NCBI GenBank assembly: GCA_031263025.1
Contig: JAISGO010000032.1
Span: 1-44,383, forward strand
DNA: 44,383 bases
Reading direction: 5' to 3'
Source of the DNA: Coriobacteriales bacterium
Lineage (GTDB): Bacteria; Actinomycetota; Coriobacteriia; Coriobacteriales; UBA8131
Shown: positions 8,528-37,354 of the stretch, one piece after another
How positions within the stretch are numbered: the stretch's first letter is position 1
Layout: each line of letters begins with the position of its first letter
The notes under the pieces: model-generated
What the model was told of the DNA's origin: nothing
The model's database searches: none
What the model saw: the letters and a program-made list of their open reading frames with translations, nothing else
Made by a program: the position numbers and the translations under genes

Positions 8528-9556
8528 ATGTCATTTTTTGATAGATTGAAACAGGGGCTGTCAAAGGCCAACACGCAGCTCAAGGAGGGCTTGAACGTCG
8601 TCCTGCACAACTCGCCCAAAGTCGACGAAGACTTCTGGGATAAGCTCGAGGAAACTCTGATAGAGTCCGACTTCGGCGCCGCCGCGACCATGCAGATCGT
8701 CGGCGAACTGCGAAAGACCGCCACCCGCAAGGCCATCCCCGACGCCGCCGGCGTGCTCGCTTACCTCGCAGATGAGATCAAGGCGCTCTTCACTGCGGCG
8801 CCCTATGACATCTTCGGCGAGCCGGCCGCCTGTCTGGTCTTCGTCGGCATCAACGGTGTCGGCAAGACCACGACCTGCGGGAAGCTCGCGAAACAGCTGA
8901 AGGACGCTGGAAAATCGGTCATCCTCGGCAACGCCGACACCTACCGCGCCGCCGCCGCCGAGCAGCTTGAGGTCTGGTCCGAGCGTGCCGGTGTGCCGCT
9001 CGTCACCAAGGAACGCGGCGCCGACCCGGCCGGCGTGGTCTACGACACCTTGAACGCCGCCGAACGGGACGGGGTCGCCTTCACCCTGATCGACACCGCC
9101 GGCCGCCTCCACACCTCCTCCGACCTGATGCGCGAGCTTCAGAAGGTGGTCAAAGTGACCCGCAAACGCGCCGCCAAGTTCGCCCTCGACCAGAGCGCGA
9201 GCGAGCAGAGCGAGCGCCTGGCCCAGACGGCCGTCCTGCCCTCCGGCGAAGCGACCGGCCCGGAACTTGTCTCGGGAGGCCTGCCGGTCTACCTCATCCT
9301 CGTGCTCGACGCCACCACCGGTCAGAACGGCCTCACCCAGGCCCGCGAGTTCAAGGAGGCGGTCGATCTCGACGGCCTGATCCTGACCAAACTCGACGGC
9401 ACCGCCAAAGGCGGCATCGCCGTCGCCATCTCCCACGAGCTCGACCTACCCATCCTAAAAGTCGGCGTAGGCGAGCAAATCGATGATCTCGACGACTTCG
9501 ACGTCGACGACTTCGTCGCCTCCCTCATCGGCGACGAGAGCAACGAGGCCAGCTAA
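8528..9556 (+). CDS. ftsY: Signal recognition particle receptor FtsY
   Basis: 342 residues. SRP GTPase that docks SRP-ribosome complexes at the membrane. The N-terminal four-helix N domain (about 1-95) lacks the long acidic A domain, as in many Gram-positives. GTPase motifs: G1 GINGVGKTTT (108-117), DTYR (137-140), G3 DTAGR (189-193), G4 TKLDG (287-291), then AKGG (293-296). Between the G3 helix and the strand LILVLDATTGQNG there is an extra ~40 residues (about 213-252) not seen in typical FtsY. It includes PELVSG, a peptide typical of in-frame palindromic repeats. The core is intact, so the protein should be functional. Confidence 0.97.
   Translation: MSFFDRLKQGLSKANTQLKEGLNVVLHNSPKVDEDFWDKLEETLIESDFGAAATMQIVGELRKTATRKAIPDAAGVLAYLADEIKALFTAAPYDIFGEPAACLVFVGINGVGKTTTCGKLAKQLKDAGKSVILGNADTYRAAAAEQLEVWSERAGVPLVTKERGADPAGVVYDTLNAAERDGVAFTLIDTAGRLHTSSDLMRELQKVVKVTRKRAAKFALDQSASEQSERLAQTAVLPSGEATGPELVSGGLPVYLILVLDATTGQNGLTQAREFKEAVDLDGLILTKLDGTAKGGIAVAISHELDLPILKVGVGEQIDDLDDFDVDDFVASLIGDESNEAS
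9260..9277. repeat. PELVSG-type palindromic core within the ftsY insert
   Basis: The DNA encoding PELVSG (CCGGAACTTGTCTCGGGA) contains the imperfect palindrome CCCG...CGGG. It has the same spacing as the CCTGAATCGAGTTCAGG hairpin inside the ABC ATPase gene at 5295, whose frame encodes PELDSG. Confidence 0.4.
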
Positions 9557-9613
9557 TAAGCTATCCCCAAACCGCACAATGACAGAAACATCACAGAAAC
9601 GATACAAGCAAGT

Positions 9614-9715
9614 TGAAAATCCAATATTCGGAGCAGATTCGCGTCTGTCCGCACGGAGTGTCCGCCCGTACTCGAGTACGGGCGGACGCGAAGATGCCCG
9701 AATAGTGGATTTTCA
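9614..9715. repeat. Long nested palindromic element between ftsY and glmU
   Basis: A 102-nt near-perfect inverted structure. The outer arms start TGAAAATCCA and run to TTCGCGTC with only a few mismatches. Inside is a perfect 28-bp palindrome (9660-9687; GTCCGCCCGTACTCGAG and its mirror). It could fold into one long hairpin and block readthrough from ftsY, but the perfection suggests a small repeat element or recent conversion. Confidence 0.7.
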
Positions 9716-9735
9716 GAGCCAATAAAGGAGACCGT

Positions 9736-11142
9736 ATGGCATTCTCAGCATTAATACTAGCAGCCGGCGCTGGCACCCGGATGAAGTCAGACACGCCCAA
9801 AGTCGCCCACACCCTGCTGGATAAGCCGCTGGTACGTTGGGTGATCGACTGTGCCAAAGACGCCGGCGCCACCCAGATCTGTGTCGTGCTCGGCCACCAA
9901 CGCGAAAAAGTGATGGCTCTGGTCGATGACGTGCCGATCGTCTTCCAAGAAAAACGCCTGGGTACCGCCGACGCCGCCAAACAAGCGCGGCCAGTCCTTG
10001 CTGGCAAGGACGCTCCGGAATCGGTGATCGTCCTCAATGGCGACACTCCCCTGATCAAACCCGAGACCTTGAGGGATCTGGCCCTTGCCCGCGAAGCCAG
10101 CGGCGCCCACGCCTGCGTGCTCACTTTCAAAGCACAAAACCCCACCGGCTACGGCCGTATCGTGCGTGATCTGGAGGGTAGTTTTGTCAAGATCGTCGAA
10201 GAAGAGGACGCCAGCATCGCCGAACGCAACATCCATGAGGTCAATAGCGGGGTCTATTGTTTTGACACCAAAGTGCTCTTCGCCGCGCTCGAGCGGGTGG
10301 GTAACGACAACGCCCAGGGCGAGTACTACCTGACCGACACCCTGCCGGTGATCATGGAAGCAGGCGGGCGGGTTGATATCTTCAGCACCGAGGACGAGAG
10401 TGAGCTGGTGGGGGTGAACAACCGCGTGATGCTAGCTGAGGCCGCAGCGATCCTGCGCCAGCGCATCAACACCCGGCACATGCTCGAAGGCGTCACCATG
10501 CTCGACCCCTCGAGCGTTTGGATCGGCCCCGACGTCGAGCTCGAACACGACGTCGAAGTGCTGCCGATGACCTTGCTGATGGGTGACACCCACGTCGGAC
10601 GCGGCACCGTACTCGGTCCCAACACCCGTATCAACAGCTGCCAGATCGGCGAGGATTGCTCGATTGACGAGACCATCGCGATCGGCTCCACCATCGGCAA
10701 CCGGGTCTCGACTGGGCCGCGCGCCTATCTGCGCCCTGGCACCGTACTCAAGGACGGCGTGCACATCGGTACCTCGGTAGAGTTGAAGAACTCGACCATC
10801 GGCGTTAACTCAAAGGTACCGCACCTCTCCTATATCGGCGACTCCCAGGTAGGCCGCGAAGTCAACATCGGGGCTGGTTCAATCACCTGCAACTACGACG
10901 GTGTCAACAAGCACCCCACCGAGATCGGCGACCACGCCTTCGTTGGTTCCTCTACCATGTTCGTCGCGCCGGTCAAAGTCGGCAACGACACCGTGACCGG
11001 GGCCGGTTCGGTGATCACCCAAGACGTTCCAAACGGCGCACTTGCCCTAGAGCGCTCCGAGCAGATCACCAAGGAGGGTTGGAGCGCCGAGCATAAGAAG
11101 AAGCTTATCGGTCGCACCGGTAGTTTTCAAACGGTTGTCTAA
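9736..11142 (+). CDS. glmU: Bifunctional UDP-GlcNAc pyrophosphorylase / GlcN-1-P acetyltransferase
   Basis: 468 residues, normal GlmU length. It acetylates glucosamine-1-phosphate and then forms UDP-GlcNAc for peptidoglycan. The N-terminal nucleotidyltransferase starts with LILAAGAGTRMKSDTPK (about 6-22) and has VLNGDTPL (about 99-106). The C-terminal left-handed beta-helix carries hexapeptide repeats (IGEDCSIDETIAIGSTIGN) and the acetyltransferase region RPGTVLKDGVHIG...VELKNS and GAGSITCNYDG. AAAGGAGA precedes the ATG. glmM is elsewhere in this window (25.4 kb), so the last three steps to UDP-GlcNAc are covered. The tail (TKEGWSAEHKKKL) is typical. Confidence 0.97.
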   Translation: MAFSALILAAGAGTRMKSDTPKVAHTLLDKPLVRWVIDCAKDAGATQICVVLGHQREKVMALVDDVPIVFQEKRLGTADAAKQARPVLAGKDAPESVIVLNGDTPLIKPETLRDLALAREASGAHACVLTFKAQNPTGYGRIVRDLEGSFVKIVEEEDASIAERNIHEVNSGVYCFDTKVLFAALERVGNDNAQGEYYLTDTLPVIMEAGGRVDIFSTEDESELVGVNNRVMLAEAAAILRQRINTRHMLEGVTMLDPSSVWIGPDVELEHDVEVLPMTLLMGDTHVGRGTVLGPNTRINSCQIGEDCSIDETIAIGSTIGNRVSTGPRAYLRPGTVLKDGVHIGTSVELKNSTIGVNSKVPHLSYIGDSQVGREVNIGAGSITCNYDGVNKHPTEIGDHAFVGSSTMFVAPVKVGNDTVTGAGSVITQDVPNGALALERSEQITKEGWSAEHKKKLIGRTGSFQTVV

Positions 11143-12298: not shown

Positions 12299-12374
12299 GC
12301 CCTTGTAGCTCAGGGGATAGAGCGACTGCCTCCGGAGCAGTAGGCCGCAGGTTCGAATCCTGTCAAGGGCACCA
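12299..12374 (+). tRNA. tRNA-Arg (anticodon CCG)
   Basis: 76 nt including encoded CCA. The acceptor stem GCCCTTG pairs with CAAGGGC, followed by discriminator A. The D-stem GCTC/GAGC and anticodon stem ACTGC/GCAGT are perfect, with loop CTCCGGA, so the anticodon is CCG (reads CGG). The T-arm has TTCGAAT with one wobble pair in its stem. Confidence 0.97.
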
Positions 12375-12482
12375 TTTCGCTTGTTAAAATCTTCCAGCTT
12401 GCATTCGCGTCAGCCCTCATTACCGACTAGGTAACTTCGGTCTGACGCTCATCCAATCTGGAAGATTTTTCCTACGCGAAAT
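12375..12482 (+). repeat. Structured tRNA-trailing element, copy A (after tRNA-Arg)
   Basis: Starts directly after the tRNA CCA. Nested stems: TTTCGC with GCGAAA (12375-12380 / 12476-12481), AAAATCTTCCAG with CTGGAAGATTTT (12386-12397 / 12458-12469), GCGTCAG with CTGACGC (12407-12413 / 12442-12448), and TTAC with GTAA in the centre. The core CAGCCCTCATTAC (12411-12423), 5 nt, then AGGTAACTTCGGTCTG (12429-12444), is shared exactly and with equal spacing with the element behind tRNA-Lys. T5 follows the second stem, so it may also end transcription. Confidence 0.7.
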
Positions 12483-12571: not shown

Positions 12572-12605
12572 CGAATCCTGTCAGGGGCGCAATTTCTTTT
12601 CTATT
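12572..12605 (+). repeat. Partial tRNA-Arg 3'-end copy joined to the element terminus
   Basis: CGAATCCTGTCAGGGGCGC (12572-12590) matches the T-arm and acceptor 3' end of tRNA-Arg (12354-12372) with two differences. It is followed by AATTTCTTTTCTATT, identical to the sequence directly after the tRNA-Lys CCA on its strand. It looks like an attachment-site-style duplication or a decayed tRNA copy. No 5' half of a tRNA is visible. Confidence 0.55.
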
Positions 12606-12627
12606 CGACACATGCCGCGCCCAATGC

Positions 12628-12651
12628 GGGGATACCTTATAAGGTATCCCC
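12628..12651. repeat. Perfect 24-bp TATA-centred palindrome
   Basis: GGGGATACCT, TATA, AGGTATCCCC is its own complement over 24 bp. It lies just after the end of the iron-sulfur subunit gene (minus strand) and could also help terminate it. It is related to the palindromes at 7734 and 8393. Confidence 0.65.
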
Positions 12652-12682
12652 CGTTTGGCGTGTTGGCAGAAATCATCTCCTC

Positions 12683-29138: not shown

Positions 29139-30863
29139 CTAACAACGCAGCTTAGCCAGTTGGTGGTGGATCTCGGCCAAGGTCATGGGAATGCTTGAGA
29201 AGTTAACCCCATGAATGCGGCTGAGCTCGGCGGCAATCTCTGACCAGTCAGTCAGACAGTAGAGGTTCTCGCGCAGATTAATGCAGTTTAAGGCGTCCAA
29301 GGCCTGGCAGATACGTTGGGCGGTATAGGCGTCCTTGAGATCCTTCTGGAGCAGGCTAAGCAACAGGATGACCACGAAGCTGACCAGGAAATGGGTGCGC
29401 ACATAGACTCCGGGGTCGAAGCCTGTCGGGACAGACCTTGGCAGGACGGGGAGGTTCTCAAAGAGCAGGGCCGCCCTTTGGTGGCGGCGAAAAGTGACCG
29501 CGACCTCCCGGGCCGGCATCTTGGTCTCGGTGGTGAGCAAGACTTGGTAACCACCGAGCTGCTCGATCCGGGCAAGCCCGGGGCGCTGCCCCTGGCTGGG
29601 CGGGTTTTGCCCTAACCAGGCCAGGCGGTTGCGTTCATGGAGCTGGCGGCGCAAATCACGCTGGTAGCGGCGGCGCAAAAGCGCCGCATGGTCGGGCGAA
29701 TAGACACAGACCTGCTTGACCGCGCAGATGGCTTGGTGGACGTCGCCCTGCGCGTCAACCTGGCAGAAGCGCCGACGCAGCTTACGGCTCTTGAAACGCT
29801 CGCCGGCCACACTGTCGCTCCAGGCGTCGTTTAAGATCCACTCGCGCAGCTCGCCCTGTGCGCCGCTGATGTCCTGGCTTAAGATGAAGCCGATCGCAGG
29901 ATCCGCGAAGATATGCAGGTCGCCAAGGCGCTTGATGCCGATGTCCTCGACTGAGACGATCCGCCCAAGCCCGGCCGCTTGCCTGCTCTTAAGTAAGTCA
30001 GCCCGGTGCCGGAGCGGATCGTCGACCAGGTAGTCAATGGCCATGAGGTCAAGGGGGATGCCCCGGGCATCGGTGAGCAGGGCACTGCGCACCAATCCGG
30101 GTAGGGCGCGAGTGGCAGGAGCCTGCTCAGGATGCCCTTTTGACGCCTGCTCCGCCTGCGGTAGGTGGCCGAAGTTTAAGCCCAGATAGGTATGCACCTT
30201 ATGGTAGAAGCCGAGCTTGAGCTCAGGCTGGTAGATCCGGGGCAGGCGCAGGCGCAGTTGGTTGAGCAGGTGACGACCTTGGCCGGCGATGCGCACAGTC
30301 GCGTCGAAGAGCTCAGCCGGGCGGAAATCGGCCCGCTCGAAAAGGCAACCGCGTCGCCCAGCATAGTCGAAGGGCCCAGTCGGACGCAGGCAGCGCAACA
30401 TCGTCAGCAGGCGAAAAACCGCATTGAGGTCATAGAGGACGTGCTGTTTTTGCTGGACACTACGCCAGAAGGACTCGATGCCGAGCTCCTCGTAGAGGTG
30501 GTAGGGAAAGAAATAGCCCAGGTTCTTGGCCACCACCGGCTTGGGCGCAGCCAGCCCCGACTCGCGCAGGTCCTCGACAAGTTGGTGTCCATTATGCTCG
30601 CCCTGGTTAAAACGCTCGACCATGGCCTGGCAGTGGGCCAAGGGGTCACGGTAACGCTCCGCCAACTGGTCAAGATAGCCGAAGGAGACGAAAGTCTTGG
30701 AGCGCGCTTTGCCGGATGCGTCACGGTAGCTGTAGACACAGCTCAAGAAGACCCGCCCGGTCTTGGGATTGACTGATTTCTTCAGGTACAGACGCCCCTC
30801 CCTCCTCTCAAAATTCTGTCGCGAAAAAATCCGAAATGCTACATGCTGTATGCTCCAGGCCAT
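29139..30863 (-). mobile_element. IS1634-family (IS4-like) transposase
   Basis: 574 residues. Typical family start (LYLKKSVNPKTGRVFLSCVYSYRD...KTFVSFGYLD), a DDE-type RNase H core (ALLTDARGIPLDLMAID; GRIVSVEDIG) and the late Glu region followed by VRTHFLVSFVVILLLSLLQK, which matches the conserved helix of IS1634 transposases. The reading frame is intact. I could not find convincing terminal inverted repeats or target duplications in the flanks (29058-29138, 30864-31042), so the element may have lost its ends. Confidence 0.88.
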
Positions 30864-37046: not shown

Positions 37047-37070
37047 ATTTCTTTTATATTTGAGCGCAGT
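37047..37070. repeat. Direct repeat of the tRNA-Lys element arm
   Basis: ATTTCTTTTATATTTGAGCG followed by CAGT is repeated at 37174-37197 (TAGT there), 127 bp away. Between them, CAGACACGAAGTTTACT and GTAAACGAG resemble the element core, so a decayed tandem copy may lie here. The remaining sequence of the gap shows nothing else clear. Confidence 0.5.
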
Positions 37071-37173
37071 AGATTTTTCGATATTTTGCCCAGATTTTCG
37101 TCTGGCCAGACACGAAGTTTACTAAGGTAAACGAGTAGCCAGATTAAAGGGATCATCACATTGTGTAAGGGGC

Positions 37174-37278
37174 ATTTCTTTTATATTTGAGCGTAGTTGG
37201 GCTGAGTGACAGACCGAAGTTACCTGATGTGTAATGAGGGCTGGCGCGAAGCCCAAATGCGCCAAATAGAAAAGAAAT
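37174..37278 (-). repeat. Structured tRNA-trailing element, copy B (after tRNA-Lys)
   Basis: Begins right after the tRNA CCA on the minus strand. Outer arms pair 37259-37278 with 37174-37193 (16 of 20 positions), then TTGGGCT/AGCCCAA (37197-37203 / 37250-37256). The core CAGCCCTCATTAC (37243-37231), 5 nt, and AGGTAACTTCGGTCTG (37225-37210) is identical to copy A, while the stem arms and the central 5 nt differ. Confidence 0.7.
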
Positions 37279-37354
37279 TGGTGCGCCGTCGGGGGTTCGA
37301 ACCCCGGACCTTAGGATTAAAAGTCCTCTGCTCTGCCAGCTGAGCTAACGGCGC
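37279..37354 (-). tRNA. tRNA-Lys (anticodon TTT)
   Basis: 76 nt including encoded CCA. Acceptor GCGCCGT pairs with ACGGCGC, discriminator A. D-stem GCTC/GAGC; anticodon loop CTTTTAA with anticodon TTT; T-arm CGGGG TTCGAAC CCCCG. The first pair of the anticodon stem is a G-A mismatch. Confidence 0.97.

Follow-up and report, generated by a model that had tools for sequence, protein, structure and literature searches.

The intercistronic RNase III hairpins of Escherichia coli, such as that of rpsO–pnp, are long and belong to single loci. Bacterial MITEs, among them ERIC, Correia/NEMIS and BOX/RUP/SPRITE, are short, non-coding, palindromic and dispersed, and are transcribed with their host gene; RNase III cleaves the transcripts of Correia elements, and mRNA decay changes where an ERIC copy stands at the 3′ end of a gene (PMC10969869). 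REP/BIME repeats are mobilised by RAYT (Y1) transposases (PMC3733652, PMC2817692), and flanking ORFs reportedly take their stop codon from GTAG REPs (PMC3733652). Effects of RNase III or RNase E and the donation of stop codons have accordingly been described for transcribed repeats of the MITE/REP kind, such as ERIC, Correia and BIME (PMC10969869, PMC3733652). Repeats of the bcr1 kind in Bacillus, as cited in PMC2267715, are about 150 bp long and have mobile characteristics. A search of the literature for the core letters of the family presented below, or for repeats targeted to terminators, returned nothing usable.

Here we describe a conserved hairpin family in the draft genome of a member of the Coriobacteriales (1.39 Mb, 89% complete), which lies in sense orientation at gene 3′ ends, has been copied within the genome and is present where relatives lack the element. 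The reading we favour, and hold to be somewhat better than an even bet, is that these hairpins form an undescribed MITE/REP-class family of palindromic interspersed repeats, which target gene 3′ ends, have spread by copying and probably serve as intercistronic hairpins for RNA processing or stability and not as terminators.

Like MITEs, the family consists of short, non-coding, dispersed palindromes that are intergenic and often near gene 3′ ends (roughly 72 copies, with TATTTGG/CAAATA and the outer arms paired as terminal inverted repeats). It differs from them in being strongly sense, in starting flush with a stop codon or a CCA, in keeping its internal-loop bases invariant while the paired arms vary fully, and in mostly lacking a target-site duplication, which is convincing at two copies here whereas it accompanies a related repeat in Bacillaceae; nor did a parental insertion sequence come to light. 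Palindromes at gene 3′ ends, bulged stems and clusters are shared with REP/BIME, but the alignments of 22 and 58 copies show units of about 110 nt, not 20–40, with one orientation and no GTAG or CGTC tag, and both Y1 genes of the genome carry other repeats. As REP definitions of size, tag and RAYT linkage, and mostly the MITE definition by target duplication, do not apply, we file the family as palindromic interspersed repeats outside the named families. Some of its long intercistronic hairpins occupy the same operon junctions as the E. coli RNase III hairpins, which are single-locus, whereas here they form a repeat family whose cleavage is putative. Integron attC sites are likewise bulged hairpins right after ORFs, but cassettes are not placed as the copies of this family are, which follow tRNA and housekeeping genes. 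By analogy, the family may work in the manner of the transcribed MITE/REP repeats ERIC, Correia and BIME.

The window, that is, the whole 44,383-nucleotide stretch analysed, is one contig of this genome (C43). A sequence-only reading had noticed in it an element starting immediately after the CCA of a tRNA-Arg gene and of a tRNA-Lys gene. Both copies were recovered at the positions it gave, 12375–12482 (+) and 37278–37174 (−), and in each the first base is the one after CCA. The core it had singled out, CAGCCCTCATTAC-N5-AGGTAACTTCGGTCTG with exactly 5 variable nucleotides, has two exact matches in the window, whereas 100 shuffles gave none even when 3 mismatches were allowed. Its stems and loops are as it described them: TTTCGC pairs with GCGAAA and AAAATCTTCCAG with CTGGAAGATTTT in the tRNA-Arg copy, and ATTTCTTTT with AAAAGAAAT and TTGGGC with GCCCAA in the tRNA-Lys copy. 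The two copies are thus real, but the reading understated the extent of the family, most of whose members follow protein genes and which has a third copy in the window. The features of the window are as follows, with covariance-model scores where they apply.

9611–9718, minus strand: third, diverged copy, between an ORF ending at 9556 (read as ftsY) and an ORF starting at 9736 (read as glmU); 59 bits, 1.3e-9; opposite strand 34 bits.
12299–12374, plus strand: tRNA-Arg(CCG), host gene.
12354–12378, plus strand: tRNA-Arg 3′ end, left member of a 25-nt direct repeat (22 of 25 identical) around the element.
12375–12482, plus strand: hairpin element behind tRNA-Arg(CCG), extended-arm variant (TTTCGC..GCGAAA outside TTAAAATCTTCCAG..CTGGAAGATTTTT); 51 bits, 1.4e-8, and 57 bits, 4.4e-9.
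12411–12444, plus strand: conserved core CAGCCCTCATTACCGACTAGGTAACTTCGGTCTG of the tRNA-Arg(CCG) copy, from the core pattern match against shuffles.
12572–12596, plus strand: tRNA-Arg 3′-end fragment, right member of the 25-nt direct repeat.
12592–12613, plus strand: remnant 5′ end of another copy (ATTTCTTTTCTATTCGACACAT), directly behind the tRNA-Arg 3′-end fragment.
37047–37131, minus strand: diverged remnant downstream of the tRNA-Lys copy, with a second core TTTACCTTAGTAAACTTCG (37113–37131) and a second 3′ end TGCGCTCAAATATAAAAGAAAT (37047–37068).
37174–37278, minus strand: hairpin element behind tRNA-Lys(TTT), standard form; 101 bits, 9.6e-21.
37210–37243, minus strand: conserved core of the tRNA-Lys(TTT) copy, from the core pattern match.
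37279–37354, minus strand: tRNA-Lys(TTT), host gene.

Elsewhere in the window, a further palindrome at 12621–12658, GGGGATACCTTATAAGGTATCCCC (in other places GGGGACACCTTATAAGGTGTCCCC), recurs at gene ends of this genome and possibly represents terminators, and a 574-aa ORF at 29139–30863 (−) has no Pfam match and looks transposase-like by eye.

Searching the genome for the core with up to 3 mismatches yields 6 places, 4 of them behind tRNA genes. An inner-core search of the whole genome exposed a much larger family, of which 22 full copies were aligned into a first covariance model; a second model, built from 58 copies, finds roughly 72 non-overlapping loci at E ≤ 0.001 (84 rows, 12 of which are the opposite strand of a listed copy). 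The sequence-only reading had known of no named family with this core, and a search of the element with the Rfam covariance models finds nothing, even at E values up to 10. Separately, a raiA RNA (Rfam RF03072, 157 bits) lies at 10666–10939 (−) of stretch L054, about 3 kb from element copies on contig C41.

Units are about 105–115 nt long and fold, taken alone, with a mean energy of −47 kcal/mol. From base to tip, each comprises a basal stem of 9–11 bp of any sequence, the TATTTGG/CAAATA pairing, a stem with fixed 3′-strand bulges, a long covarying stem and an apical hairpin that sits in a constant internal loop (CTCR ... ACTNCG). In the 58-copy alignment, which was made by sequence only and whose consensus hairpin has 34 pairs, the cells are paired in 89.7% of cases, compared to 62.8 ± 0.8% after shuffling, and all 34 pairs show two-sided changes. 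The covariation score is 0.661, against 0.193 ± 0.010 in shuffles and 0.09–0.18 when partners are slid by 1–3 columns. All four Watson–Crick types occur at the outer-arm pairs, and basal arms differ wholly between copies: about 9 of their first 10 positions pair with their own partner, compared to 5.1 with that of another copy. Near-invariant, by contrast with these arms, are the unpaired bases, namely 5′ CTCR and 3′ ACTNCG around the apical hairpin and the single 3′-strand bulges of the lower stem. Compensatory changes above chance and constant unpaired bases are what is expected of a structured RNA; the excess of compensatory change on which the earlier reading had made its case depend is there, far above shuffles, and its view of a structured element that has a conserved core and compensated stems is borne out by the covariation and the fixed unpaired bases.

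Copies adjoin 10 of the 40 tRNA genes, where the earlier reading had looked for more, and the ends of 49 of roughly 1103 ORFs (mechanical calls of at least 100 codons), so that tRNA genes are favoured (p = 1.6e-5). Relative to the gene, with ORFs of at least 150 codons, 38 copies are sense and 5 antisense (p = 2.5e-7), the copy at 9611–9718 being among the few that are antisense to their neighbours. Most lie between cistrons or in 3′-UTRs. The distance from stop codon to TATTTGG peaks at 7–8 nt, which places the stop codon inside the basal stem, and at CDS ends 26 of 36 paired basal arms extend at least as far as the stop codon. In standard tRNA copies the basal stem ends exactly at the base after CCA; in the extended-arm copies (Arg-CCG and Gly), about 10 nt of further stem intervene.

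Host genes, as read by eye, include groES, rplJ, rplF, rplS, rpmI, rpmF, rpsO, infA, infB, nusG, greA, lysS, ssb, secY, lexA and dnaB. Intercistronic copies occur at groES–groEL, rplJ–rplL, rplF–rplR, nusG–rplK, rpmI–rplT, rpsO–pnp, secY–adk, ssb–rpsR and rpmF–plsX; among the products at these junctions, Pfam confirmed GroES, GroEL, L10, L7/L12, L18, L11, L20, S15, PNPase (RNase PH domain) and S18. Two of the roles that the earlier reading had offered can be judged from this distribution. A structure of the tRNA 3′ trailer is not supported, with about 49 copies at protein-gene stop codons compared to 10 at tRNA genes, and we reject an element confined to tRNA trailers because protein genes precede most copies. 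Several tRNA genes are directly followed by copies, but an element aimed specifically at tRNA 3′ ends is not supported either; the guess of a small targeting element comes close to the explanation that we favour if its target is broadened from tRNA to the 3′ ends of genes in general.

Such positions invite a terminator role, and a transposable transcription terminator, each copy of which would be made an intrinsic and perhaps bidirectional terminator by AAAA-stem-TTTT arms, would fit the many protein-gene copies that carry AAAA/TTTT arms beside the stop codon, as well as the presence of the element beside terminators in Bacillaceae and in other families of the order. However, the copies between genes of core operons argue against plain terminators. 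A U-run of at least four occurs in the 3′ arm as often where the setting is co-directional (12 of 22) as where it is convergent (13 of 24), so a stem followed by a U-tract does not mark the ends of transcription units; tRNA copies have A-rich 3′ arms (AAAAGAAAT again) with no U-tract; and ordinary short terminators stand at other gene ends of this genome. Most copies are unlikely to be terminators, since they lie inside operons of essential genes, their U-runs do not track unit ends and the tRNA copies are A-rich, and we regard the transposable terminator as improbable.

Several observations bear on how the copies arose. The groES–groEL gap is 166 nt here, with the element, compared to 15–98 nt (median 26) without it in 21 of 21 genomes of the same family. 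A covariance-model search of 32 other genomes of that family found no match, and a diverged version lies directly after the rplJ stop codon in one same-family genome (G023). The copies behind tRNA-Lys in the window and behind tRNA-Arg(ACG) on contig C13 of the same genome are identical over 114 nt and different outside. Some copies are arranged in tandem, others are interrupted or truncated, and 5′ remnants of the element lie behind several tRNA genes that have no full copy. Bracketing repeats are convincing at two copies only, both at tRNA genes: 25 nt at tRNA-Arg(CCG), with members 218 bp apart, and 11 nt at tRNA-Arg(ACG); no target duplication was found around the remaining copies of the genome.

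These data weigh on a non-mobile alternative, in which a purely functional cis RNA, a 3′-UTR or intercistronic hairpin, evolved gene by gene under selection and was multiplied at most by gene conversion. Strong sense orientation, a fixed distance to the stop codon or CCA, sites in core translation operons and strong compensatory change around invariant loop bases would all suit it. Yet relatives lack the element at groES–groEL and give no model match, tandem arrays, interrupted or truncated copies and identical copies at unrelated loci look like copying, and the related repeats elsewhere appear plainly mobile, which leaves this alternative unlikely. Nor do we favour an origin of the variable arms by insertion into pre-existing terminator loops, because identical or near-identical copies share their arms and because, in another family of the order, it is constant ends that enclose the variable arms.

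As to a mobilising enzyme, the two Y1 genes of the genome are flanked by different repeats and not by the element, and we reject a RAYT-mobilised REP on this ground. These genes, both RAYT-like, at C21:5873–6196 (−) and C26:2912–3235 (+) (stretches L106 and L107), each have their own REP-like palindromes, TGCCAAA..GGGGACAGGT..TTTGGCA and TATCAAAGGGACGTTTCATTTGATACA, with copies of both scattered elsewhere in the genome. Inserts of another kind, with the common sequence TTCGAACCCTGAGAGGG, lie behind tRNA-His (C7), tRNA-Leu (C41) and tRNA-Ala (C5); those of tRNA-His and tRNA-Leu are followed further on by a tRNA 3′-end fragment and then a copy of the element. The inserts are perhaps a second small element that uses tRNA 3′ ends.

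Across the order, strict filters return matches in 20 of 399 genomes (this one included), mostly in one other family. Four genomes of that family hold 5 to 18 copies each by core pattern, compared to almost none for a reversed control. In that family, a small variable hairpin beginning at the stop codon precedes the element, which has constant ends (CGCTGC ... CGCTGA) with variable paired arms between them; in one instance a 47-nt perfect repeat, made up of a tRNA 3′ end and terminator, encloses the element. A scan of 84,980 species for the exact core found nothing outside this genome, and the viral, phage and plasmid collections searched gave no match. With a relaxed core, a scan of genome contigs gave 46 matches, about half of them single matches in unrelated sequence, about a dozen in Litchfieldia salsa and others in Gottfriedia, Niallia, Robertmurraya, Jeotgalibacillus and Bacillus.

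The Litchfieldia repeat is 156 nt long and shares a core of the same design, GCTCATTACC-N5-GGTAACTCCGC, with the family of the window. It has 12 full copies, 88–100% identical, and two 5′-truncated copies with intact 3′ ends directly after stop codons (L252, L253); no autonomous copy was found among these. Insertions occur in both orientations, each between two copies of a terminator hairpin specific to its locus, such as GAGGTTAGCCTGATACAGGCTAACCTC, so that the repeat looks like a mobile element that duplicates the terminator on insertion; it is also akin in size and mobility to bcr1. Across Bacillaceae, a repeat of about 156 nt between two copies of an intrinsic terminator was seen in stretches L150, L157, L163, L164, L168, L170, L171, L178–L182, L184, L186 and L192. 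The window-family model scores the Litchfieldia repeat weakly (best E value 3e-5). Common descent of the two, which would rest on core, architecture and this weak score, is likely but not certain. A cross-phylum superfamily with the core CTCR ... ACTNCG, which would integrate in fixed orientation at RNA 3′ ends (tRNA CCA, stop codon or terminator) and which in one lineage would have become genome-wide intercistronic RNA processing sites for the translation machinery, is a tentative and rather doubtful extension of this idea.

Duplicated terminator hairpins and insertion both ways in Litchfieldia, together with tandem arrays and remnants in the genome of the window, could also speak for a selfish palindromic repeat that has no host role and whose siting would merely reflect a target preference, such as cruciform-forming terminators or tRNA 3′ ends. 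In this genome, however, the copies are strongly sense and at a fixed distance to the gene end, and their basal arms stay paired despite complete variation. Near-strict sense orientation is not expected of purely selfish insertion, and this reading is quite unlikely. Retro-copying of a SINE-like kind, in which a reverse transcriptase would attach the element to RNA 3′ ends, would explain the exact start at the tRNA CCA, the taste for abundant RNAs and the 5′ truncations in Litchfieldia; we reject it as highly improbable, as a search for RVT_1 proteins found none in this genome (itself 89% complete), Bacillaceae copies lie in both orientations, and poly-A-like or priming signatures are lacking.

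Returning to the copied, gene-end-directed repeat that we favour, its spread into gene 3′ ends is indicated indirectly, by copies that are identical although their loci are unrelated, by sites that are empty in relatives, by tandem arrays, by the bracketing tRNA 3′-end duplication and by the same-core Bacillaceae repeat between duplicated terminators. It would move as a non-autonomous element, presumably through an enzyme that recognises the bulged palindrome. With its basal stem beginning at the base after the tRNA CCA or overlapping the stop codon, a copy once placed would form a strong hairpin at the cistron end in the sense RNA, and this hairpin probably sets processing or stability of mRNA or pre-tRNA between cistrons, perhaps as a site for a double-strand endonuclease (RNase III-type) or as a barrier to 3′ exonucleases. 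If this is right, a single repeat family has come to stand at the ends of many highly used genes, inside conserved operons and with the stop codon within the hairpin, and would offer a natural experiment on how mobile palindromes turn into RNA control elements, the insertion step of which the terminator-duplicating relatives make testable in cultured Bacillaceae.
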